Source: Haloarcula rubra (GTDB lineage Archaea > Halobacteriota > Halobacteria > Halobacteriales > Haloarculaceae). Taken from it: a stretch of DNA of 64,000 nt. The DNA lies in assembly GCF_019599465.1 (NCBI RefSeq), contig NZ_RKLR01000003.1, forward strand, positions 62,001 to 126,000, read 5' to 3'. Each line of letters opens with the position of its first letter. The first letter of the stretch is position 1. The position numbers were made by a program, and so were the translations under genes. Of the stretch, positions 32,334 through 64,000 are shown one piece after another. The notes below the pieces were generated by a model that had not been told where the DNA came from, did not search any database, and was given only the letters and a program-made list of their open reading frames with translations.

Positions 32334-32358
32334 TTCTATGTCCGGGAAGCGATATATA

Positions 32359-32384: not shown

Positions 32385-32453
32385 ATGAAACCACCATTCG
32401 CAGCACGACCCGACCGCTCGACCACCACCGCCGCGACGGAGGTGTCCGCCTGA
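32385..32453 (+). CDS. Possible leader mini-ORF before doxX-like gene (22 aa)
   Basis: An ATG at 32385 lies 24 nt after the TATATA box and encodes MKPPFAARPDRSTTTAATEV-SA. Its TGA at 32451-32453 overlaps the ATG of the DoxX gene (TGATG). The leaderless position and overlapping stop suggest translational coupling. The peptide itself may have no function. Confidence 0.4.
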   Translation: MKPPFAARPDRSTTTAATEVSA

Positions 32454-32872
32454 TGGTGTTCGACACCGCTGGCGGCGCGCTCGTCTTCCTGTTCGCCCGA
32501 GTCCTGTTCGGCGGCGTCCTCGCATTCATGGGCGTGAACCACTTCCTGAACGCCGAGCAGATGACTCCCTACGCCGAGGCGAAGGGCCTGCCCGCGCCGG
32601 GCCTGACCGTCTACGGGAGCGGCGGTCTGCTCGTCTTCAGCGGCCTCGGCATCATCCTCGGCGTCTTCCCGGTGCTGGCCGCCGGCGCGCTGGCGACGTT
32701 CCTGCTCGTCTCGGCCGTCACGATGCACGACTTCTGGGCCGTCCCCGAGGACCAGCAGCAAGACGAGATGACCGGCTTCCTGAAGAACGTCGCGATGGCC
32801 GGGGGCGCACTCGTCCTGCTGGCCGCCGCTGGCACCGCGTGGCCGTACAGCGTCGGCGTCGGCCTCGTCTGA
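32453..32872 (+). CDS. DoxX family membrane protein
   Basis: The 139-residue protein has four hydrophobic helices: VFLFARVLFGGVLAFMGVNHF, GLLVFSGLGIILGVF, LAAGALATFLLVSAVTMHDFWA and the last one near 115-135. The FMGVNHFL and MHDFW segments are DoxX signatures. DoxX-family proteins are linked to thiosulfate:quinone oxidoreductase or redox stress, though many have no defined role. Divergence from HxlR suggests stress-responsive control. The start overlaps the mini-ORF stop. Confidence 0.85.
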   Translation: MVFDTAGGALVFLFARVLFGGVLAFMGVNHFLNAEQMTPYAEAKGLPAPGLTVYGSGGLLVFSGLGIILGVFPVLAAGALATFLLVSAVTMHDFWAVPEDQQQDEMTGFLKNVAMAGGALVLLAAAGTAWPYSVGVGLV

Positions 32873-41759: not shown

Positions 41760-41911
41760 CACACACCCGACCACCCCCTGTTCGGGGTTAGTAATTGTGC
41801 CCATAGCTCAGAGAATGAACTCTATACTCTCCCGGACGACGGCGCCGCCGGCGACCCGAGCACCGACGTCGAACCGCACGACGGTGGCCGTCCGTGTCGG
41901 TATACGACCAG

Positions 41912-41919
41912 CATAACAA
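41912..41919 (+). promoter_or_regulatory. CATAACAA promoter element before DUF457-like gene
   Basis: GCATAACAATAGGGG begins the unit. The GTG of a 12-aa mini-ORF (41946) is 26 nt downstream, and the main ATG is at 41989. Confidence 0.5.
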
Positions 41920-41945: not shown

Positions 41946-41984
41946 GTGAGACAGACCAGTGACGTCGTCGGGTGGGGTGCATAG
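41946..41984 (+). CDS. Possible leader mini-ORF (12 aa)
   Basis: A GTG 26 nt after the CATAACAA element encodes a 12-residue peptide ending in TAG at 41984, 4 nt before the main ATG at 41989. It fits the mini-ORF pattern described under findings, but a GTG start makes it weak. Confidence 0.3.
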   Translation: MRQTSDVVGWGA

Positions 41985-41988
41985 TTCG

Positions 41989-42558
41989 ATGTGGCCGTGG
42001 GAACATCTCGCCGTCGGCTACCTCCTCTACTCGCTGGTAGTACGGGCGACCGGTCGGTCCCGACCGCGGGGCCCCGACGTCCTCGCCGTCGGTCTCGGGT
42101 CGCAGTTCCCCGACCTCGTCGACAAGCCGCTCGGGTGGGGGACGACGCTGTTGCCCTCCGGAACGTCGCTCGCCCACTCGTTGCTGTTCGCTGTCCCCGT
42201 CGCGACGCTCGTCGTCCTCGTCGCCGCCCGGTACCGCCGGTCCTCGATAGGTATCGCCTTCGCAGTCGCGTACCTCGCACACATCCCCAGCGACGTGGTG
42301 TACCCACTCGTGCTGGGCGACGAACTCCGGTTGGGGTTCGTACTCTGGCCGCTGATTCCGGCCGACCCGATGCCGCCGACGAACGTCTTCGCCCGCGTGG
42401 GTCACCTGTTCACCGACTTCCTCGCCGTCGTCTCGACGCAGGCGGGACTCAGGTTCCTCTTCCTCGAAGCGTTCCTGCTCGGTGTGACCCTCCTCGTCTG
42501 GCACGCCGACGGCCTCCCGGGACTGGAACTGGTCAGGCCGACACCCACCGACCGATAG
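41989..42558 (+). CDS. Metal-dependent hydrolase-like membrane protein (DUF457/YdjM family)
   Basis: The 189-residue protein has about four membrane helices and the metal-site pattern of the YdjM/DUF457 family. This includes PWEHLAVGYLLYSL with His6, GLGSQFPDLVDKPLGW with Asp pairs, GTSLAHSLLFAVP, and AHIPSDVVYPLV. The family is annotated as membrane-bound metal-dependent hydrolases, mainly by similarity. Substrates might be lipid or glycan lipids. It has its own CATAACAA promoter. Confidence 0.8.
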   Translation: MWPWEHLAVGYLLYSLVVRATGRSRPRGPDVLAVGLGSQFPDLVDKPLGWGTTLLPSGTSLAHSLLFAVPVATLVVLVAARYRRSSIGIAFAVAYLAHIPSDVVYPLVLGDELRLGFVLWPLIPADPMPPTNVFARVGHLFTDFLAVVSTQAGLRFLFLEAFLLGVTLLVWHADGLPGLELVRPTPTDR

Positions 42559-47180: not shown

Positions 47181-48182
47181 TCACTTGAGCCGTCGGTAGA
47201 GCCGAGCCATCGCGCCGAACCCGGGCGCGCTCCGCTCGAGCGAGTGGTAGCGGGTCAGCGTCGGGGCGAACTTCGACTTGTACCGCGAGAGCCGCGGGTT
47301 GTTCGCTCCGACGAGGTCGTACGCTCCGACGCCCCGTGCGGACGCGTCACGGATGACGTACCAGTGCAGCAGATCGTTGATGTCGTATTCGAGGTCGGTC
47401 TTGACCGTCCCCTGCCAGCCGTACGCGCGGCGGCCGTCGTCGAGGACGAGACTACCCCCCGCGAACACGCCGTCGATGGTACAGACGTACGGGCGGAGGT
47501 ACCCCTCGGGCAACGCCTCGTAGAGGTCCTCGACGAGTTCGATAGTCACGGGGAACTGGAGGTCCTGTTCCGCGTGCCGGTTGCGGACCTGTGTGATGAT
47601 GCTCCGGGCGGCCGCGTGTCCGGATTCGGTCACCGTACAGTCGTCCTCTGCCTCCCTCACGTTCGACCGGGCGTCGCGACTGAAGCGGTCGAACAGCGCG
47701 TCCGGGCCGGCCTCGAGGTCGACGACGTAGGTGAACCGCGGCGTCTCTTCGAACATCTCCCAGTCGAACGGGCGCGTGTCGGGGGTCGTGATAGACGTTC
47801 GGACGTGGACGTATCGAGGGGCGTGTGTCCGGTCCAGCCAGTCCAGACAGCGCTCGACGAACCGGCGTCGACGGCGCTCGACCGAGTTGGACTTCATCCC
47901 GGGACTGGTCAGGATGACGGGCCCGAGGTAGCTCACTTTGAGGTCCGGTGGTGGCGAGAACGCCGTCGTTATCGGCCCCTTCTCGATGGTGAACAGCGGG
48001 AACAGACCGACGGGTTCCTGACCCTTGTACCCTATCAGCGGGTGAAACGCCGCGTCGGCGTGGTCGGCGAACACCGAGAGCGCCTCGAAGCGATGGAACG
48101 GTGTCCGTTCGTCCGTCCGTTCTAACGTGTCGTTCCAGACGTCGCTGTCGCTCGCGTCGAGCGCGGTTATTTCCAGGCTCAT
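47181..48182 (-). CDS. FemAB/GNAT-fold acyltransferase-like protein
   Basis: The 333-residue protein is a double-GNAT FemAB/BioF2-type enzyme. It has TPFHRFEALSVFADHADAAFHPLIGYKGQEPVGLFPLF near the start, then RDARSNVREAEDD, and GGSLVLDDGRRAYGWQGTVKTDLEYDINDLLHWYVIRDASARGVGAYDLVGANNPRLSRYKSKF near 240-305. Bacterial relatives add amino acids to peptidoglycan or modify surface glycolipids; some occur in exopolysaccharide clusters. Archaea lack peptidoglycan, so a glycan acylation role is inferred. The ATG overlaps the stop of a mini-ORF. Confidence 0.8.
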   Translation of the reverse strand: MSLEITALDASDSDVWNDTLERTDERTPFHRFEALSVFADHADAAFHPLIGYKGQEPVGLFPLFTIEKGPITTAFSPPPDLKVSYLGPVILTSPGMKSNSVERRRRRFVERCLDWLDRTHAPRYVHVRTSITTPDTRPFDWEMFEETPRFTYVVDLEAGPDALFDRFSRDARSNVREAEDDCTVTESGHAAARSIITQVRNRHAEQDLQFPVTIELVEDLYEALPEGYLRPYVCTIDGVFAGGSLVLDDGRRAYGWQGTVKTDLEYDINDLLHWYVIRDASARGVGAYDLVGANNPRLSRYKSKFAPTLTRYHSLERSAPGFGAMARLYRRLK

Positions 48183-48235
48183 GGGTCCATCCCTCTTCGT
48201 ATCCCCCAGTTCCGGAGACCGGTAAGCGCCAACAT
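48179..48235 (-). CDS. Possible leader mini-ORF before FemAB-like gene (18 aa)
   Basis: On the reverse strand an ATG at 48235 encodes MLALTGLRNWGIRRGMDP and ends in TGA (48181-48179) overlapping the main ATG (ATGA). It starts 30 nt after a TATAACTTA element. This is the same geometry as at the DUF1616 and GT2 genes. Confidence 0.4.
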   Translation of the reverse strand: MLALTGLRNWGIRRGMDP

Positions 48236-48266
48236 CGCTCGCTTCGTACTGACGACCACGGGGGGT

Positions 48267-48274
48267 AAGTTATA
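48267..48274 (-). promoter_or_regulatory. TATAACTT promoter element upstream of FemAB-like gene
   Basis: The reverse strand reads GGCTATAACTTACC. The mini-ORF ATG at 48235 lies about 30 nt downstream. It is a variant of the TATAACAA octamer. Confidence 0.45.
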
Positions 48275-48345
48275 GCCAGCCTACCTCCGGACGCAGTCAC
48301 GGCACCTGCGGGCCGTCGAGACGGGCGTTCCGGCGGTACGGACGC

Positions 48346-48353
48346 CATAACAA
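48346..48353 (+). promoter_or_regulatory. CATAACAA promoter element before DUF1616 gene
   Basis: CGCCATAACAAAGCG is followed by the mini-ORF ATG at 48385, 31 nt later, then by the main GTG at 48447. Confidence 0.55.
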
Positions 48354-48384
48354 AGCGACGTTCCCGGATAGCCCGTATCGAACA

Positions 48385-48450
48385 ATGTCTGGGGCTAGCG
48401 TTCGGGCGACCCGTGAGTCGACGACGGACCGGTGGAGGTCTAGGGCGTGA
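48385..48450 (+). CDS. Possible leader mini-ORF before DUF1616 gene (21 aa)
   Basis: ATG 48385 encodes MSGASVRATRESTTDRWRSR-A and ends in TGA overlapping the GTG of the main gene (GTGA at 48447-48450). It lies 31 nt after the CATAACAA element, in the leaderless position. Confidence 0.4.
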   Translation: MSGASVRATRESTTDRWRSRA

Positions 48451-49451
48451 GCGTCACCGAGACCGCTCGCCGGCTGGCGGCGTCCACGTTAGACGTCGTA
48501 CCGATAGACCTCGTGGCACTCCTCGTCTACGTCGTCTTCGCCAGCGCGGCAGTGACCGTCGGCGTCGGCGGGACGGTGGTCGGCTTCGTGGTCGGCTCCC
48601 TCCTCGTGTTCTTCGTCCCGGGGTACGCGGTCATCGCTGCCCTCTTTCCCCGCCGACCACAGAACAGGGACGCCGGTGAGGGCGCTATCGGCCTGTCGCT
48701 GACGGCCGCCCACGACGGCGTCCTCGCACGGGAGCGACTGGCGCTGTCGTTCGGTCTCAGCGTGACGCTGATTCCGCTCGCCGCGGTCACGCTCGGAGCG
48801 CTGGGTATCAGACTGACCACGGAGTCCGTGCTCGCATCGGTGTGGGTCGTCGTCGTATTCGGCGTGGTCGTCGGCACTGCTCGACGGCTCGCCGTCCCGT
48901 CCCACGAGCGGTTCGACCCGCTGGCGGTCGCCCGGCAGACCGGGACGGAGCGCTTCTTCGGCGGCGACGCCGTGACTCGCGCGCTCACCGTCTGTCTCTG
49001 TATCGCCGTCGTGGCCGCGCTCGGGTCGCTCACCGTCGCCCTCGCGGGGCCGACCCAGTCGATGTCCTACACCAGTGCCTCGCTGCTGACCGAGTCGCCC
49101 TCTGGTGAGAACGTCGCCGGTGGGTACCCGACGAACGGGACGGTCGGCGAGTCGACTTCGCTCGTCGTCGAAGTGACGAACCACCACGACAGCGCCGCCA
49201 CCTACACCGTCGTCGCGAGGCTCCAGCGCGTCGACGGCGGGACGGTCCTCGCCAGCGAGACGCTCCGCCGTCAGTCACAGCGGGTCGCCGTGAACGAGAC
49301 GTGGACGTACGACCACACGGTCACGCCGACGATGGCCGGACAGGACCTCCGATTGGCGTACTACGTCGTCCGCGGACCGATGCCGGACACCGTCGACGAC
49401 GGGACTGCGGACAAGGTCCTCTACCTGCGAATCGACGTCGCGCCGCGGTGA
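48447..49451 (+). CDS. DUF1616 family membrane protein
   Basis: The 334-residue protein starts at GTG 48447. Hydrophobic segments near 20-60, 95-115, 125-145 and 185-205 anchor it. LVALLVYVVFASAAVTVGVGGTVVGFVVGSLLVFFVPGYAVIAALFPRR with the FxPGYxxxxxLFP motif is the DUF1616 signature. The last 120 residues form an extracytoplasmic beta-sandwich (VEVTNHHDSAATYTVVARL). DUF1616 proteins are frequent in archaeal exopolysaccharide and N-glycan loci, but their role is unknown. Confidence 0.85.
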   Translation: MSVTETARRLAASTLDVVPIDLVALLVYVVFASAAVTVGVGGTVVGFVVGSLLVFFVPGYAVIAALFPRRPQNRDAGEGAIGLSLTAAHDGVLARERLALSFGLSVTLIPLAAVTLGALGIRLTTESVLASVWVVVVFGVVVGTARRLAVPSHERFDPLAVARQTGTERFFGGDAVTRALTVCLCIAVVAALGSLTVALAGPTQSMSYTSASLLTESPSGENVAGGYPTNGTVGESTSLVVEVTNHHDSAATYTVVARLQRVDGGTVLASETLRRQSQRVAVNETWTYDHTVTPTMAGQDLRLAYYVVRGPMPDTVDDGTADKVLYLRIDVAPR

Positions 49452-49763
49452 CCGGGCTGGCCGACGGTCGCATCGGTCGGTAGCCGCCGTCACCGTCCTT
49501 GCTCTGTCACCGGGGAACCGCTTCTCTCGACGACGCTCGTCACGTCCGCGACATTTTTGACTATCGACGGTCGCGCCCGTCGCGCATCGTCGTGTGCAAC
49601 AGCAGGCGACGTTGACGCCGTCAGACTCCGCCGCCGAGACTGCTCGTCCGGTTCGAATGGCGGTTCGACCCGACGGCATCGCTGTCGGCGGCTGTCAGTA
49701 TCTTCCTCGCCTCGAAATCCACCGTCCACCCGAGAGAAGGACCGGAAACCGAACGTGAGGGTC
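49452..49763. other. Intergenic stretch of 312 nt between convergent genes
   Basis: I find no convincing coding frame. The region carries a T-run (ATTTTTGA, about 49552-49559), which may terminate the DUF1616 transcript, and nothing else recognisable. Confidence 0.45.
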
Positions 49764-52700
49764 TCAGAGCTGTCGACTGAGGACGGCGATACTGCCCGCG
49801 ACGAGTCCGATGCTGCCGAGCGCGAGGAGGCCCAGCAGGAGCGGGGACATCGAACCGCCGTCGCCGCCGGACTGGACCCACGACTCGGTCTGGACGGTCT
49901 TGGCCTCGCCGCCGACGGTCACCGACGCGTTCTGTCCGTTGACGCCCACAGTGTACTGGCCGGGGTGTTCGATTCGCTGGTCGAAAGTGACCGTCTTCGT
50001 CTCGCCGGGTGCGACGGTCACGGACTGGCGCTCGACCACCTCACCGAAGACGACGAAGGAGGCGTTCTCGGTGCCGGTGACGGTCCCGTCGTTGCGGAAC
50101 GTCGCGCGCACCTGCACGGACTCCCCGGCGTCGACCGTCTCGCGTTCCACGTCGACCGACGGGGGGCCGATGTCGGCTCTCGCTGGCGCGACGTCGACGG
50201 TCGTCTGGAGGCCGGCGACGGTGAGGCGCTGTTGCCCGGCCGCCGTCGGGACGACGGTAAACTGGAGACGCTCGGTCTCGCCCGCCCGAATCGTCACGCG
50301 TTCGGAGGCGACGACGCGACCGCCGAGGACCGTCGTCACCGTCTCAGACCCGTCCCGGTGCCCGGTGTTGGCGAGCGTCACCGAGACGTTCGTCGACCGG
50401 TTCGCCACCGGCGACCCGGCGACTGCGAGGTCGGTCCCGACGACCTGTGCCGTCGGGAGGCCGACGACCAGCGGTTCCTCCGGGCCGGCCGTCGCGTTGA
50501 GGACGACGGTCGAGTCGTTGCGGACCAGCGTCGTCTCGACGGGCTCCCACCCGGACCCGTTCCACGTCGCGACGACGAGCGAGTCGACCGAGCCACCACG
50601 GTCACGGACTGCCGCTCGGTCGACGGCTAGCTGGTAGGTGACCGAGGCGGGGGCGGGACCGGACGAGACGGTCGGGCCGAGTGCCAACAGCGTCTCGTCG
50701 GTGCCGGTGGGTGGCCCGTCGCTCCCGTTCCACTCGTCGGTCACGGTCACTGCGGTGTCGGGTTCGACGTCGGCGAGCGCGATACGCCGGACCGTCACCG
50801 GACCGCTTCCGAGCGCTCCGTCCTCGATTTCGGCACCGACGAGGTTCGACTCGACGTTGCTCTCGACGACGACGGCGTTCCCCTCGCGCGTCGCCGTCCC
50901 GGGGGGTTCGACGTCGTCTGGTTCGGGCGCCGGGGCGGGGGCCGCACCGCCTCCGCCACCGCCGCCACCGCCTCCGCCGCTGTCGCTTCCGCCGCCTCCA
51001 CCGCCCCCACCGCCACCGCTGGACGACTGTGCGACGGTCACCGTGACGGCGGCGCTCGCCGTCTGGCCGTACCGGCCGGTCACCTCGTACGTCGCCGTGT
51101 ACTGGCCGCTCGTCTCGAAGACGTGGCTGGTCTGTGAGGCGACAGACGTGGTCGTGGTCCCGTCGCCGAAGTCGAGACGCTGGCTCTCGACGCGGTCCGC
51201 CGGGGTCGCCTCGGCGGTGAACACCACTGTCTCGCCCGGCTGCACCTGCTGGCTGTCCGCCGACAGCGTGGCCGTCAGGTCCGTCGCGGCCTCGACGCTG
51301 ACCGTCGCTGTCGCCGTCGACGACACGTTCTCGGCGTCCGTGACGGTCACGCTCACCGTCCGGTTGCCGACGGTGTCGAACGCCGTGGTCAGCGTGGCGT
51401 TCGCCGTCACGTTCTCGGCGGTGCCGTCGCCGTCGGTGTCCCACTCGTAGGTGGCGCCACCGCGGGGGACCGTCGAGTTGCTGGCGTCCAGCGTGACGTT
51501 CGCCGCCGGACGTGCAGTCGCGGGTGCGTCGAGTCTGGCGACCGGGTCCTCGGTCGCGTTACGCTGGACGGCGACTGTCGCGTTCGCGCTGTCCGTCTGT
51601 CCGCTGGCGTCGGCGACGGTGACGGCCACCGTCCGATTCCCCGTGGTGGCGAACGTCGTCTGAATCTGCGACGCCGTGGTTCGCCGGTCGACCGTCCCGT
51701 CGCCGTCCACGTCCCAGCGGTACTCGGTGATACCGAAGTCGTCCGTCGAGTTGCCCGCGTCCAGCACGATGCTCTCGTTCCGGAGCGCCGTCTCCGGCGC
51801 CGACAGGGCCGCGCTGGGCGGTTGGTCGACGACGACGTCGATACTGGTGTTCGCCGTGTCGGTGTCGCCCTGGCCGTCGCTGACGGTCAGCGAGACGTTG
51901 TACGAGCCAGCCTGCGTGTAGGTGTGCTGCACGGTGGGGCCGGTCGCGCTGGTGCCGTCACCGAGCGTCCACGCGTACGTGGCCGACTCGCCGACGGTCG
52001 AGTTACGCCCGTCGAAGGTGACCGTCTCGCCCACGTTGGCTTCTGTCGGCCCCTCGATAACCGCCTCGACGGACTGGTTGGACGTGACTGTCACCGAGGC
52101 CGTGGCCTCGCCGCGCCGCCGCTCCATGTCGTCGACGAACACGGTGACCGTCTTCTCGCCGGTCGTGTCGTACGTCCGGTTCAGCGTCGGCCCGTCCGTC
52201 TCGACATCGACGGTGCCGTCGCCGTCCGTGTCCCAGAAGTAGCCGTAGATGTCCCCGTCGTCCGTCGAGTTGCTGGCGTCGTAGGTGACCGTCTGGCCGA
52301 CGGTGGCGTTCGACGGCGACGCCGTCAGCGACGCGTCAGGTGCGCTCCCGGCCGCACACGCCCCCTGCTGGACCGACACCGAGGCGTTCTTCGAGAGCGG
52401 GGCGAGGCGCTCCTCCGGCCCTCTGGCACTCCAGTTCAGTGGGTCGTCGGCGTACGCCCAGTCCTTGCTCTCTTTTGCGTAGGTGTCGTTCCCCCACTCG
52501 GCGTCGACGACGATGGCGGAGTCGTTGGCGTGCGCGAGCCCGCGCAGCGCGCCCCCGTCGTTCCGGTCCGGTTCCCACATCCAGTCCATCTGGCTGGACG
52601 TGTCGTTGTGGACGAATCGGTCGTCCTGGTTGGGGTAATTGTCGTCTTCGACGGCCCACTCCGCCTCTGTCGGGATGTTCGTGATGTCCATCGAGACGGC

Positions 52701-53060
52701 GCCGGCGGTGTCGCCCCCGTCGTTGCGCTTGTCGTGGAGGAAGACGAGACTGTCGCCCTGAGACCCGCGATAGACGTAGAACTGGCTTACCTGCGACACC
52801 TGCCGCTCGTCGGTCCCGTGAGAGCTGAAGTCCGTGTCGTTCTGGTAGTCGTAGTACGTGACGACGTCCTGTGACCCGTCCCCGACGATGGTAAGCGGAA
52901 CACACCGCTCGCCCTGCACCACGCTGTAGGCGGCCGGTCTGTTCTCGACGTTCTCGACGTTCCCCGCGGCCGTGCCGACCGGTCCTAAGGGGCCGATACT
53001 TGCGCCGACGACGAGCAGTACCAAAGCGATGCTCCTGATTGCGAGTGTCTCCCGTTCCAT
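49764..53060 (-). CDS. Large secreted multi-PKD-domain surface protein with C-terminal anchor
   Basis: The 1098-residue protein has a signal peptide (residues 1-32) and a Trp/Asp-rich N-domain with no recognised family (about 40-240). About five PKD repeats with the YDASNSTDDG/YxWDxDGDG pattern cover about 245-675. A striking poly-Gly linker at 679-706 (nt 50941-51024) separates them from a beta-rich C-terminal half. CARDB-like strands lie near 890-1050 and a membrane anchor ends the protein (MSPLLLGLLALGSIGLVAG). Many NxS/T sequons indicate glycosylation by AglB. It probably forms extended surface structures. Confidence 0.82.
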   Translation of the reverse strand: MERETLAIRSIALVLLVVGASIGPLGPVGTAAGNVENVENRPAAYSVVQGERCVPLTIVGDGSQDVVTYYDYQNDTDFSSHGTDERQVSQVSQFYVYRGSQGDSLVFLHDKRNDGGDTAGAVSMDITNIPTEAEWAVEDDNYPNQDDRFVHNDTSSQMDWMWEPDRNDGGALRGLAHANDSAIVVDAEWGNDTYAKESKDWAYADDPLNWSARGPEERLAPLSKNASVSVQQGACAAGSAPDASLTASPSNATVGQTVTYDASNSTDDGDIYGYFWDTDGDGTVDVETDGPTLNRTYDTTGEKTVTVFVDDMERRRGEATASVTVTSNQSVEAVIEGPTEANVGETVTFDGRNSTVGESATYAWTLGDGTSATGPTVQHTYTQAGSYNVSLTVSDGQGDTDTANTSIDVVVDQPPSAALSAPETALRNESIVLDAGNSTDDFGITEYRWDVDGDGTVDRRTTASQIQTTFATTGNRTVAVTVADASGQTDSANATVAVQRNATEDPVARLDAPATARPAANVTLDASNSTVPRGGATYEWDTDGDGTAENVTANATLTTAFDTVGNRTVSVTVTDAENVSSTATATVSVEAATDLTATLSADSQQVQPGETVVFTAEATPADRVESQRLDFGDGTTTTSVASQTSHVFETSGQYTATYEVTGRYGQTASAAVTVTVAQSSSGGGGGGGGGGSDSGGGGGGGGGGGAAPAPAPEPDDVEPPGTATREGNAVVVESNVESNLVGAEIEDGALGSGPVTVRRIALADVEPDTAVTVTDEWNGSDGPPTGTDETLLALGPTVSSGPAPASVTYQLAVDRAAVRDRGGSVDSLVVATWNGSGWEPVETTLVRNDSTVVLNATAGPEEPLVVGLPTAQVVGTDLAVAGSPVANRSTNVSVTLANTGHRDGSETVTTVLGGRVVASERVTIRAGETERLQFTVVPTAAGQQRLTVAGLQTTVDVAPARADIGPPSVDVERETVDAGESVQVRATFRNDGTVTGTENASFVVFGEVVERQSVTVAPGETKTVTFDQRIEHPGQYTVGVNGQNASVTVGGEAKTVQTESWVQSGGDGGSMSPLLLGLLALGSIGLVAGSIAVLSRQL

Positions 53061-53118
53061 GATGGTCCGACGGGCTGGTGCCCGACTGAGTATGGCCGGG
53101 TTTCAGAAGAGTACGGCT

Positions 53119-53126
53119 TTGTTATA
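53119..53126 (-). promoter_or_regulatory. TATAACAA promoter element upstream of PKD protein
   Basis: The reverse strand reads GCTCTATAACAAAGCC and lies 58 nt before the ATG at 53060. No mini-ORF is visible here, so the transcript would have a leader of roughly 30 nt. Confidence 0.5.
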
Positions 53127-53152
53127 GAGCGCCGTCTCTCGGTAACGGCCAC

Positions 53153-54262
53153 TTACACCGAGTCGGTGTTCAGTTGAATCTGCTCGCCGGCGGCCGGTCG
53201 TGCCGCGGCCCGCCGCACCTCTTCCATGATGCGAAGCGTCCACGTCCCCTCGGCGACGGGGACCGGCATCGGGTCGCCGTTGAGAATCGCTCTGGCCTCG
53301 GCGTCGAACTGGTAGTAGTGGGAGTCGAGGTCGCGTTCGGCCGCCCAGTCGTCGGTGAAGCTCCGGCGGGCGACGGCGACGACGTTCTCCAGCGTCCCCT
53401 CGATGCGGCCGAGGACGTGGTCGACGTTCGTGAGCGCGCGGGCCTTCGCGGAGGCCTCGTAGTCCCGGTCGAGGACCGTCACCGTCTGGGAGACGACGTC
53501 GACGAGCAGACTGCCCCGCTCGCCGTGGATTCGGATGGACTTGTGCGGGACGTCGCTGGCCAGTATCGTGGCGTTACACAGGACGTCCGTCTCGCTCGTG
53601 TACTGGAACTGGACGCTGTCGTAGTCGAACCCTTGCTCGTACTCTCTGGTGAGAGTGGTCTGGGCCTGAATCGCGTCGTCGTCGACCGGGTAGCCGCCGA
53701 GTTTCAGCACGATGTAGATGGGGTGTGGGAGTCCCTCCTCGAACTCGCCGCCGGGGAGGTCGAACGCCCACGCGCCCCGGCGCACGTCGTCGGGGTACGT
53801 CTCGCCGGTGTAGAGGATGTTCACGGAGCGGACGTCGCCGATGGCGCCGCGGTCGACGAGCCGGGTCGCCTTGCGAACGGCCGGGTCGAAGTTGTGGTTG
53901 TGGACGACCGACACCGGCACGTCGTGGTCGGCGGCGAGCGATTCCAGTTCCTCCGCTTCGACTACCGACGTCGTCACGGGCTTCTCTATCTGGACGGCGA
54001 TATCGTCCTCGATGGCCATCCGCGCCAGGTCGAGGTGTGTCTGGACGGGCGTACAGAGGTGAATCCAGTCGAGGTCTTCACGGGCGAGCATCCCCTCGAA
54101 GTCGGCGAAGGCACCGATGTCGTACTCGGTCGCTTTCGCTCGCGCTCGTGACTCGTCGAGGTCACATATCGCGACGAGGTTCGTCAGCGGACACTTCTGG
54201 AGGCCGGAGAGGTGGACGTCGGACACCGTGCCGCCGCCGACGACTGCGCTGTTCAGCGTCAT
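53153..54262 (-). CDS. Gfo/Idh/MocA family oxidoreductase
   Basis: The 369-residue protein has the Rossmann start AVVGGGTVSDVHLSGLQ and the family EKPVTTS motif near residue 95. The catalytic-region GxxxHxxH-like GLPHPIYIVLKLGG is also present. It is a NAD(P)-dependent dehydrogenase likely acting on a nucleotide sugar or inositol. The surrounding glycan genes suggest a sugar-nucleotide step. Start chosen at ATG 54262; a GTG 6 nt upstream also exists. A TATAACAA element lies 27 nt before the ATG. Confidence 0.88.
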   Translation of the reverse strand: MTLNSAVVGGGTVSDVHLSGLQKCPLTNLVAICDLDESRARAKATEYDIGAFADFEGMLAREDLDWIHLCTPVQTHLDLARMAIEDDIAVQIEKPVTTSVVEAEELESLAADHDVPVSVVHNHNFDPAVRKATRLVDRGAIGDVRSVNILYTGETYPDDVRRGAWAFDLPGGEFEEGLPHPIYIVLKLGGYPVDDDAIQAQTTLTREYEQGFDYDSVQFQYTSETDVLCNATILASDVPHKSIRIHGERGSLLVDVVSQTVTVLDRDYEASAKARALTNVDHVLGRIEGTLENVVAVARRSFTDDWAAERDLDSHYYQFDAEARAILNGDPMPVPVAEGTWTLRIMEEVRRAAARPAAGEQIQLNTDSV

Positions 54263-54289
54263 CGTCACATCACCTCGGTGCTGTCGGTA

Positions 54290-54297
54290 TTGTTATA
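54290..54297 (-). promoter_or_regulatory. TATAACAA promoter element upstream of Gfo/Idh gene
   Basis: The reverse strand reads CGCCTATAACAATACC, 27 nt before the ATG at 54262, giving a leaderless main gene. Confidence 0.55.
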
Positions 54298-54416
54298 GGC
54301 GCTGTGTGCGGCGGTAAGGCCCTTCTACTGGCGTCGTCACGACGCCGTTACCGGTGGCCGACGCCGTCGTCCCGTCGATAGCCGCCGAATCGACCGGACG
54401 CACGGCACAAGCCGAC

Positions 54417-54424
54417 CATAACAA
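54417..54424 (+). promoter_or_regulatory. CATAACAA promoter element before GT2 gene
   Basis: GACCATAACAATGCCC is followed 30 nt later by the mini-ORF ATG at 54455. Confidence 0.55.
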
Positions 54425-54454
54425 TGCCCGAGACAACACCAGTTTCCGGCGAGA

Positions 54455-54493
54455 ATGGGCCCTGAAACTCCCCGGCGCGTCGGAGCGTGGTGA
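54455..54493 (+). CDS. Possible leader mini-ORF before GT2 gene (12 aa)
   Basis: ATG 54455 encodes MGPETPRRVGAW and ends in TGA at 54493, 2 nt before the main ATG at 54496. It starts 30 nt after CATAACAA, consistent with leaderless initiation and coupling. Confidence 0.4.
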   Translation: MGPETPRRVGAW

Positions 54494-54495
54494 CG

Positions 54496-55539
54496 ATGTA
54501 CCGTGACGCAACCGTCGCCGTCGTCGTGCCAGCGTACAACGAGGAGGGACTGGTAGGCGAGACTATCGAGACGATTCCCGGCTACGTCGACCGGATATAC
54601 GCCGTCGAGGACGGGTCGACCGACGGGACGTGGGCGGAGATACGCCAGACCGCCGAGCGCGTCAACGCCGCCTCGACGTCCAGAAACGGCTTCTCGCGTC
54701 GTGTCGTTCCCATCAAGCACGACGCGAACCGCGGCGTCGGGGGTGCGATAAAGACCGGCTACCTCGCCGCCCGCGAGGACGGCATCGACGTGACCGCGGT
54801 CATGGGCGGGGACGCCCAGATGCAACCGGAACTGCTCGAAGGCGTCGTCCGCCCGATCGTTGAGGGCGAGGCCGACTACGTCAAAGGGAATCGGCTCATG
54901 AACGAGGCCCACCGGAGCGGGATGCCCCGGTTCCGCTACGTCGGCAATCGCATCCTCACGTGGCTGACCCGCATCGCGAGCGGCTACTGGACCATCGGCG
55001 ACCCGCAGAACGGGTACACCGCCATCTCGCTGCACGCACTGGAGGAGGCTGGCATCGAGGACATGTACGAGTACTACGGCTACTGCAACGACCTCCTCGT
55101 CAGGTTGAACGTCGCGGGTCTCCGGGTCGTCGACGTGCCGCGGCCGGCGAACTACGGCGACGAGGAGAGCCACATCGCCTATCGCTCGTACATCCCGAAG
55201 GTGTCGGGGATGCTCCTGCGGAACTTCCTCTGGCGCCTGCGGACCAAACACGTCGAGGAGGGGCCGTACTCGATGCTCGCGCTGTTCGTCGGCGCGGCGA
55301 TGACTGTCCTCGCCGGTGTCGTCGACGCCGTGCGGAGCGATGGGTCCCTCCTCGAATCCCTCCCCCGCCTGCTCGGGTCGCTCCTCCTCGGCACCGCCTT
55401 CCTCGCCGGGGCGTTACTGGTCGACCGGAACTACGAACAGCATCTCGACGACCGTATCGACCCGCCCGTGGCCGACGCGGAGTCCGAGGGTAGCGAAGAG
55501 TCCTCGGCCTCCGTCTCGCCCGCCGTCGGCGACGACTGA
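54496..55539 (+). CDS. GT2 glycosyltransferase with C-terminal membrane helices (DPM-like)
   Basis: The 347-residue enzyme starts VAVVVPAYNEEGLVGETIETIP and has VEDGSTDGTW and the metal motif GGDAQMQPELLEGVV. A DPQNGYTAISLHAL acceptor loop and an interfacial helix follow. Two membrane segments lie near 255-310 (MLALFVGAAMTVLAGVVDAV and LLGSLLLGTAFLAGALLV). It resembles dolichyl-phosphate mannose or glucose synthases and would make a lipid-linked sugar. The tail is acidic and Ser-rich. Start is ATG 54496. Confidence 0.86.
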   Translation: MYRDATVAVVVPAYNEEGLVGETIETIPGYVDRIYAVEDGSTDGTWAEIRQTAERVNAASTSRNGFSRRVVPIKHDANRGVGGAIKTGYLAAREDGIDVTAVMGGDAQMQPELLEGVVRPIVEGEADYVKGNRLMNEAHRSGMPRFRYVGNRILTWLTRIASGYWTIGDPQNGYTAISLHALEEAGIEDMYEYYGYCNDLLVRLNVAGLRVVDVPRPANYGDEESHIAYRSYIPKVSGMLLRNFLWRLRTKHVEEGPYSMLALFVGAAMTVLAGVVDAVRSDGSLLESLPRLLGSLLLGTAFLAGALLVDRNYEQHLDDRIDPPVADAESEGSEESSASVSPAVGDD

Positions 55540-55571
55540 CGGCAGCAAGGTCTTACTCGGTGTAAAGCCAC

Positions 55572-55579
55572 CATAACAA
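55572..55579 (+). promoter_or_regulatory. CATAACAA promoter element before Tat beta-helix lipoprotein
   Basis: CCACCATAACAATTCG lies 25 nt before the ATG at 55605, leaderless spacing. Confidence 0.55.
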
Positions 55580-55604
55580 TTCGATTCTCGTCGTCAGGGA
55601 CGGT

Positions 55605-57032
55605 ATGTCACGGGAGTGGACGCGTCGTCGGTTGCTCGCCAGACTCGGCGCCGCTGGTCTGCTCGGCTCACTCGCCGGGTGTCCACGCGAGGACGGCGCG
55701 CCGAGGACCACGACGCCCACGGAACGGACGACGCGGCCGACCACCGTCGACACCGCCGTCTCCAGAGAGACGCCGACGGCCACCGAGTCAGCGACCGCCA
55801 CGCCGGCCCCCGAGGACTACGACAAGGTCGTCGACGTCGTCGAGGAAGGCGCCGACCCGACCGGGTCCGTCTCCATCCACTCGACGCTCCAGTCGCTGGA
55901 CACCGACCACACGCTGGTCCGGTTCCCGCCCGGCGAGTACCTGCTCGACGAACACTGGTACGTCGACGAGTTCACTCGGCTGGGCATCGTCGGCCCGGAG
56001 GCGACCATCACCACCGTCCCGAACTTCGGTGGGCCGCTGTTCGGGCTGGGTCGCAGCGAGGACGCAACCGACCTCGCCGTCGAGGGGCTGACGTTCGACT
56101 TTCGGCGGGAGAACACCGGACCACGGCCGCTCCACCTGACCGTCGCCGACGACCTGCACGTCTCGGACGTCACCGTGCGCGGCGAGTTCGACGTGGACCA
56201 GGACGGGATGCGGTTCGGCGTCACCGACCCCGACGGGACGGGAGTCGTCCGACGCCTCCGCATGCCGGACGGTGGCGCCCCTCAGTTCACGAACACCGGC
56301 TGTTACGTCGGCGACGACCACCGCGGCCACGTCCGGTTCGAGGACTGTCTCGTGGGTGGATTCCCGGACAACGGCCTCTACGCCTCCCCCGCGCCGGGTC
56401 GCGTCGACGTCGTCGGCGGTCGGTACGAGAACAACGGCGTCTCGAACGTGCGGGTGAGCGGGCCAGCGACCGTCGAGGGCGTGACGGTCCGCTGTGACAC
56501 GGCCCGGCCGGGCGTCCCGAACATGCGCGGCATCCGCCTCCGCGAGGGTTCGAACGTCCTCGTCGACGGCTGTCGCGTCGTGATGGACCGCGTGACGGAG
56601 AGCGACGGCGCCATCACCTGCGCCAACTGGCTCGAGTCGGCCACGATTCGGAACACCCACGTCACCGTCCGGGCCGACGGGGTCCGGGCGCTCTGGGCGA
56701 AAGACCCGAAGAACGGCTCCAGCGCGGAACGCCGCTACCCGCTGCAGATTCGGAACCTCACCGTCGACGGGTCCGCCGCCGGGAACACGGCGATAATGAT
56801 AAGCGGGCGGAACGGGACGCTCCTCGACGGCCTCTGTGTCTGCCAGACCGGCCGGGGGCGGAACGGCGTCACTGTCGTCCAGTCGGCCGACTCCGCCCTC
56901 CGCCAGTCGTCCATCACCGTCACCGGGACACCGCTGGTGACCGAACAAGCGGCGCTCGACAGGCGTGACCTCAGCCTCCAGTCGCTCGGGAGTCCCGGCC
57001 GCGTGAGCAACGGCGTGTGTGACTGCTCGTGA
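55605..57032 (+). CDS. Tat-exported lipoprotein with right-handed beta-helix
   Basis: The 475-residue protein starts with a twin-arginine signal (WTRRRLLARLGAAGLLGSLAGC) ending in a lipobox Cys at about residue 26, so it is lipid-anchored outside the cell. A Thr/Pro/Glu linker follows. From about residue 90 the repeats read LVRFPPGEYLLDEHWYVDEFTRLGIVGPEATITTV and continue as parallel beta-helix coils with N-x-S/T sequons. Such folds bind or cleave polysaccharides. A role on surface glycan is inferred; no catalytic triad is assigned. Confidence 0.83.
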   Translation: MSREWTRRRLLARLGAAGLLGSLAGCPREDGAPRTTTPTERTTRPTTVDTAVSRETPTATESATATPAPEDYDKVVDVVEEGADPTGSVSIHSTLQSLDTDHTLVRFPPGEYLLDEHWYVDEFTRLGIVGPEATITTVPNFGGPLFGLGRSEDATDLAVEGLTFDFRRENTGPRPLHLTVADDLHVSDVTVRGEFDVDQDGMRFGVTDPDGTGVVRRLRMPDGGAPQFTNTGCYVGDDHRGHVRFEDCLVGGFPDNGLYASPAPGRVDVVGGRYENNGVSNVRVSGPATVEGVTVRCDTARPGVPNMRGIRLREGSNVLVDGCRVVMDRVTESDGAITCANWLESATIRNTHVTVRADGVRALWAKDPKNGSSAERRYPLQIRNLTVDGSAAGNTAIMISGRNGTLLDGLCVCQTGRGRNGVTVVQSADSALRQSSITVTGTPLVTEQAALDRRDLSLQSLGSPGRVSNGVCDCS

Positions 57033-63829: not shown

Positions 63830-63918
63830 CGACGGTGACGGGTCGGTAAGCCGACTGTAGCATCAGGTTACGACCCGCCGACGGCGACCGGTAGCGGCCG
63901 CCGATTTCACAGGACGCC

Positions 63919-63926
63919 CATAACAA
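63919..63926 (+). promoter_or_regulatory. CATAACAA promoter element before the gene cut by the window end
   Basis: GCCCATAACAAAGCCCGG, 36 nt before the ATG at 63963. Confidence 0.5.
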
Positions 63927-63962: not shown

Positions 63963-64000
63963 ATGAACGGGACCCGCTGTGTCGACCGGTCCGAGACGTA
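63963..64000 (+). CDS. Start of an unidentified gene (cut by window edge)
   Basis: ATG 63963 opens MNGTRCVDRSET before the window ends. A CATAACAA octamer upstream supports a transcription start here. Too short to identify; a mini-ORF cannot be ruled out. Confidence 0.35.
   Translation, partial: MNGTRCVDRSET

Follow-up and report, generated by a model that had tools for sequence, protein, structure and literature searches.

Gene Setting and the NYATAACAA Motif

The DNA analysed here is a haloarchaeal stretch of 64,000 nucleotides (G000:C31:62001-126000, hereafter the window) with G+C = 66%. Between 48 and 64 kb it carries genes of surface-glycan type, which encode an acyltransferase, a DUF1616 protein, a PKD-domain protein, a Gfo/Idh protein, and a family 2 glycosyltransferase (GT2). 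A short motif recurs in this region: CNATAACAA is present in 7 copies in the window versus 0.09 expected, and the best consensus for this octamer is NYATAACAA. The 4.67 Mb genome has 14 copies of the form CYATAACAA. Six of these fall within 48-64 kb of the window, and the seventh of the cluster sits 5.3 kb past the window end. In most relatives, genome-wide counts of CYATAACAA are not above those of a reversed-pattern control, so many off-cluster copies are chance occurrences. NYATAACAA sites are found at window positions 48345, 54416, 55571, and 63918 on the forward strand, at 53127 and 54298 on the reverse strand, and at L088:5325, 12056, and 16181; there is no obvious A-rich BRE upstream of the sites.

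An archaeal TATA box at about -27 would put a leaderless start at the motif-to-start distance seen here, which in the window and in relatives is 26-36 nt for mini-ORFs and 25-37 nt for directly leaderless genes. The octamer-to-start distance had been described as 30-31 nt; it is not strictly so, with an overall range of 25-37 nt. NYATAACAA behaves like a TATA element specific to a regulon of surface-glycan type genes, and it may rely on a dedicated TFB/TBP or an activator.

Mini-ORFs Between the Motif and the Main Genes

All five mini-ORFs reported in a preliminary description of this DNA were found, at the positions given below. On the reverse strand, the octamer variant CTATAACTT (48267..48275; kept as TATAACTT or TATACTTA in Haloarcula relatives) precedes an 18-codon mini-ORF, MLALTGLRNWGIRRGMDP (48179..48235; 18, 14, and 15 codons in relatives), which overlaps by ATGA with the FemAB-like main ORF, an acyltransferase (47181..48182; Pfam Acetyltransf_6, the FemAB match being weak). 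On the forward strand, the octamer CCATAACAA at 48345..48353 is followed by a 21-codon mini-ORF, MSGASVRATRESTTDRWRSRA (48385..48450; 21, 15, 14, and 24 codons in relatives), with a GTGA overlap to the DUF1616 protein main ORF (48447..49451). Within this mini-ORF lies an SD-like GGAGGT (48434..48439), 7 nt ahead of the main GTG at 48447. The same octamer at 54416..54424 (forward strand) precedes the 12-codon GT2 mini-ORF MGPETPRRVGAW (54455..54493; 12, 11, 34, and 38 codons in Haloarcula relatives). Its TGA lies 2 nt ahead of ATG 54496, where the main ORF is taken to begin (54496..55539, forward strand, alternative starts GTG 54487 and 54490), or forms a GTGA overlap with GTG 54490.

Two of the five are located further upstream in the window, both on the forward strand. 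The octamer GCATAACAA (41911..41919) precedes a mini-ORF that starts with GTG, VRQTSDVVGWGA (41946..41984), which has 12 codons here as well as in three relatives and ends with a TAG 4 nt ahead of the main ATG 41989 of a YdjM-type membrane protein (41989..42558). In front of a DoxX family gene (32453..32872), the promoter-like element is not the octamer but TATATA (32353..32358). It is followed by the 22-codon mini-ORF MKPPFAARPDRSTTTAATEVSA (32385..32453), which ends in TGATG and contains an SD-like GGAGGTG (32438-32444), 8 nt ahead of ATG 32453.

A sixth mini-ORF, absent from the preliminary description, follows the octamer CCATAACAA at 63918..63926 (forward strand) in the leader of a hexapeptide-repeat transferase. 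This mini-ORF, MNGTRCVDRSETYRSPPRRPGA, has 22 codons; its first part occupies 63963..64000, and its end lies 31 nt past the window, where it overlaps the main start by ATGA. In the same genome, NYATAACAA precedes at least three further mini-ORFs beyond the initial five.

Motif-Associated Genes Without a Mini-ORF

In the absence of a mini-ORF, the main gene had been proposed to start at the same distance from the octamer. This is the case for two directly leaderless genes, one with its main ATG 55605 located 25 nt behind the octamer (55571..55607, forward strand), and the Gfo/Idh gene with its main ATG 54262 located 27 nt behind it (54260..54298, reverse strand). The PKD-domain gene departs from the rule: its octamer is followed by a conserved 58-nt spacer before ATG 53060 (53058..53127, reverse strand), in which we found neither an ATG/GTG mini-ORF nor a clear SD. 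The spacer is well conserved in three relatives, so that this motif also precedes a leader of another type. GT2 orthologs from another genus of the family (L049-L051) lack a mini-ORF; their octamer lies about 42 nt ahead of the main ATG.

Conservation of the Geometry in Relatives

We compared orthologous regions in seven further genomes of the Haloarcula clade and three from another genus, with Haloarcula pellucida, H. amylovorans, and H. rara as the named relatives, and tabulated those leaders in which the main gene does not lie directly behind the motif. This yielded 46 leaders in six families, namely YdjM-like, DUF1616, GT2, hexapeptide-repeat transferase, a 367-aa protein (the gene downstream of L088:16181), and FemAB-like. 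The six families were chosen for showing the feature, and the lineages share ancestry.

In all 46 leaders the motif, or a TATA-like variant of it, is followed at a fixed place by a start codon. The stop lies at -8 to +4 relative to the main start (from 8 nt inside to 4 nt before it) in 45 of the 46 octamer-class leaders, which places these, together with 28/28 DoxX leaders, in the range of about -8 to +10 nt for a termination-reinitiation pair. Over the 46 leaders the stop-to-start gap is -4 in most, and otherwise -8, -1, 0, +1 to +4, and once -14; the GT2 mini-ORF of G062 runs 14 nt past the main start. In G064, the mini-ORF of the hexapeptide-transferase starts 63 nt after the motif and retains the -4 overlap. 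One sub-clade of the FemAB-like family has a distance shorter by 8 nt, and a TAG abutting the ATG in place of ATGA. The frame is retained through length differences of 66 nt in GT2 and 18 nt in DUF1616 (overall, frame-keeping changes of 3, 6, 12, 18, and 66 nt were seen), and length changes that alter the frame finish on another stop at the junction. The DoxX leader keeps its frame in all 28 Haloarcula loci with a full-length match, with 22 codons in 25 loci, 23 in two, and 24 in one, always ending in TGATG; apart from the first codons, the SD-like box, and the junction, its columns are not conserved.

The expectation that these frames would be conserved in position and not in sequence was thus borne out, in that start and junction are kept while the peptides are unalike; loss of the frames in close relatives with conserved promoters, which would have spoken against the proposal, was not seen in the Haloarcula relatives examined.

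Statistical, Frame, and Codon Tests

Whole leaders were shuffled except for their last 10 nt, and starts 24-37 nt after the motif with a frame end at -8 to +4 were counted. The geometry is present in 26 of 27 lineage representatives versus 2.7 expected, shuffled leaders showing it about 10% of the time. Chance is excluded by this comparison, and the earlier impression of a geometry too regular for easy coincidence is upheld. The nominal P for the lineage representatives, about 1e-26, is indicative only because of the shared ancestry and because the families were picked for the feature; in this genome alone, 6/6 families have the geometry (P about 2e-6). A null with fixed frame and junction, under which 17/27 would be expected, was too lenient, and whole-leader shuffling was used instead.

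A frame test independent of the shuffle counted internal stops in 74 leaders, and found 0 in the mini-ORF frame versus 21 and 26 in the other two frames. This bears on the possibility that the conserved ATG matters at the level of DNA, as a promoter or initiator element, and that the open frame is a by-product. Such an element would fit the fixed distance from the motif and the partly conserved context (in DUF1616 leaders, for instance, GAACAATG); it gives no account of the 0 versus 21 and 26 stops, the frame-keeping length changes, or the junction, and we regard it as very improbable.

Codon-level comparison of close pairs showed that changes are spread evenly over the three codon positions of the mini-ORFs (21/269, 32/268, and 31/259 respectively), while in the main ORFs they fall mostly on position 3 (13, 6, and 65 of 342 respectively). 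Similarly, codon-position divergence in the DoxX leader is 0.40/0.43/0.43 for the mini-ORF versus 0.12/0.09/0.38 for the main ORF. The changed codons of the mini-ORFs in close pairs comprise 47 non-synonymous and 21 synonymous ones. Taken with the lack of in-frame stops, this even distribution indicates that the peptide is free to change in a frame that stays open and linked to the main start, i.e., an architecture conserved without conservation of the peptide, as in coupled leaderless small ORFs of the mycobacterial type.

These counts also weigh against two explanations that assign a role to the peptide. Functional micropeptides acting in trans would agree with mini-ORFs that are probably translated, but the excess of non-synonymous changes and the even codon-position change make this extremely unlikely. 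A regulatory leader peptide or attenuator, in which a signal sensed by the nascent peptide or its codons would govern the main gene, is a kind of control that usually sits at short ORFs before biosynthetic genes. However, the peptides differ between relatives and are under no codon-level constraint, and a search of Rfam with window positions 40000-64000 gave no match at the gathering score, so that neither a conserved peptide or codons nor a known RNA family points to an attenuator, leader peptide, or riboswitch. We consider this explanation quite improbable.

Octamer Sites Outside the Cluster

Of the octamer stretches outside the cluster, 20 were inspected and about half are promoter-like. 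In relatives, mini-ORFs follow the octamer at L251 (reverse strand), L262, L264, and L269, and six further genes are directly leaderless. Two candidates were discounted, L270 as probably lying within a coding frame and L268 for its unclear main start. On another contig of the same genome, a PKD-domain gene is preceded by a 25-codon mini-ORF ending in TGATG, and its H. pellucida counterpart has 25 codons and a 5-nt gap. At G000:C9:18559-18653 (L003/L004), a divergent octamer pair separates a directly leaderless gene from the 25-codon mini-ORF and its PKD-domain protein, and this arrangement is retained in H. pellucida (L251).

Among 161 first genes in 483 kb, the geometry was present in 10 versus 5.3 expected, so that leaders not behind the octamer show no clear excess (three of the 10 positives came from the cluster, and the crude start calling missed known cases). 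The design therefore appears to belong mainly to the octamer set; other cases, such as DoxX, are isolated. An isolated non-octamer candidate is the 13-codon frame MSASSNGGHVAEP on the forward strand at window coordinate 204543 (G000:C31 about 266.5 kb), which precedes an SDR-type reductase with an ATGA overlap and is kept in H. pellucida.

Ribosome Sites at the Main Starts and a Proposed Mechanism

The main ORFs had been thought to lack a ribosome site of their own, which proved incorrect: in each of the families, SD-like complementarity is stronger at the main starts than in shuffled sequence (means per family of -8.0 to -10.6 versus -4.1 to -5.8 kcal/mol), and the SD-like sites are located inside the mini-ORFs. 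Hairpin masking of the main starts was considered and dropped, because on folding the main starts are only slightly more paired than the mini-ORF starts, which is uninformative. The SD-like sites could permit independent initiation at the main starts. On this basis the main genes might be ordinary SD-led genes with leaders of 40-100 nt and incidental mini-ORFs, as the complementarity in every family would suggest. That explanation leaves the conserved start codon, the frame-specific lack of stops, and the junction unexplained, and in Haloferax SD motifs failed to drive initiation at a 5'-UTR (PMC3986360); we therefore consider it unlikely.

In haloarchaea, SDs are frequent at overlapping gene pairs, and overlapping pairs of Haloferax were strictly coupled in 9/9 cases tested (PMC6728339). 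The SD-like sites inside the mini-ORFs would, by analogy, fit this haloarchaeal use of SDs for re-initiation at overlaps and not at 5'-UTRs. Termination-reinitiation in H. volcanii has a steep distance dependence and uses the SD at re-initiation (PMC6728339; PMC10666635), and coupling has all but vanished once the spacing reaches about 22 nt (PMC10666635). The gaps observed here are within the range used by Haloferax (PMC10666635). The combination of SD-like sites at the junctions with the coupling known from Haloferax makes these leaders look like minimal operons with a disposable first gene.

Natural leaderless bicistronic leaders with coupled re-initiation are, on the comparative sequence evidence, likely the best explanation. 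The TATA-like element, which is NYATAACAA or, at DoxX, TATATA, would put the predicted 5' end at or a few nt before the mini-ORF start. The ribosome would then start without a leader on the mini-ORF, translate 11-38 arbitrary codons, stop at the SD-like site on the main start, and pass to the main ORF by termination-reinitiation. Selection would act on the start codon, the open frame, and the stop/start junction of the mini-ORF, and not on its peptide. Because relatives keep the layout while the tiny peptide drifts, the mini-ORF probably serves only for ribosome delivery to the real gene. The original proposal of leaderless initiation on a mini-ORF with coupled re-initiation is accordingly favored by the junction, the open frame, and the free peptide, and has to give up its missing ribosome site.

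Comparison With Known Systems and Implications

In mycobacteria, leaderless ORFs of <50 codons with a stop overlapping the annotated start (RTGA) have been described, and in the example shown the coupling is conserved and the peptide is not (Shell et al., 2015, PMC4633059). That system is bacterial and backed by 5'-end and ribosome data, whereas in Haloarcula we infer the transcript 5' ends, the translation of the mini-ORFs, and the dependence of the main genes on them from comparison only. The Haloarcula leaders further differ in being archaeal, concentrated behind one promoter motif, and linked to surface-glycan type genes. The arrangement and its conservation pattern are known from mycobacteria, and we regard the archaeal, motif-associated form as new.

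Within haloarchaea, there is a close likeness to the gene overlaps of 4, 1, or 8 nt with strict coupling in Haloferax volcanii (Huber et al., 2019, PMC6728339; 2023, PMC10666635). The partners there are normal operon genes, whereas the upstream partner in Haloarcula is a disposable frame of 11-38 codons at the predicted 5' end. H. volcanii also has uORFs of 15-31 aa before normal genes (Babski et al., 2016, PMC4983044), and these were the only haloarchaeal precedents found in a partial coverage of the ribosome-profiling literature. The section on these uORFs deals only with leaders of 150-250 nt, and junction coupling and conservation are outside its subject. The glycan gene agl15 has a 15-aa uORF in such a long leader (PMC4983044, Table 2), a possible parallel in a second genus of haloarchaea. 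A leaderless bicistronic design in Corynebacterium likewise uses a leaderless promoter, a fore-cistron, an internal SD, and re-initiation on the target gene (PMC10367133); it is engineered, whereas the Haloarcula version looks natural and conserved. Ribosome delivery by short uORFs is among the proposed functions of coupling in a recent review (PMC12548453).

It is conceivable, though rather doubtful, that this results in control at the level of a regulon, in which the NYATAACAA surface-glycan genes would depend on leaderless initiation plus re-initiation and be tuned by the capacity for leaderless initiation or ribosome recycling, and not by their own start sites. For annotation, a translated tiny frame need not mean a functional peptide, and the true gene start may be at the junction. 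The cases are short, conserved, and present in culturable Haloarcula species. If the proposed mechanism is true, archaea, like mycobacteria, would deliver ribosomes to real genes via throw-away leaderless ORFs, which may provide a possible answer to how leadered haloarchaeal genes are translated, given the failure of SD motifs at the Haloferax 5'-UTR.
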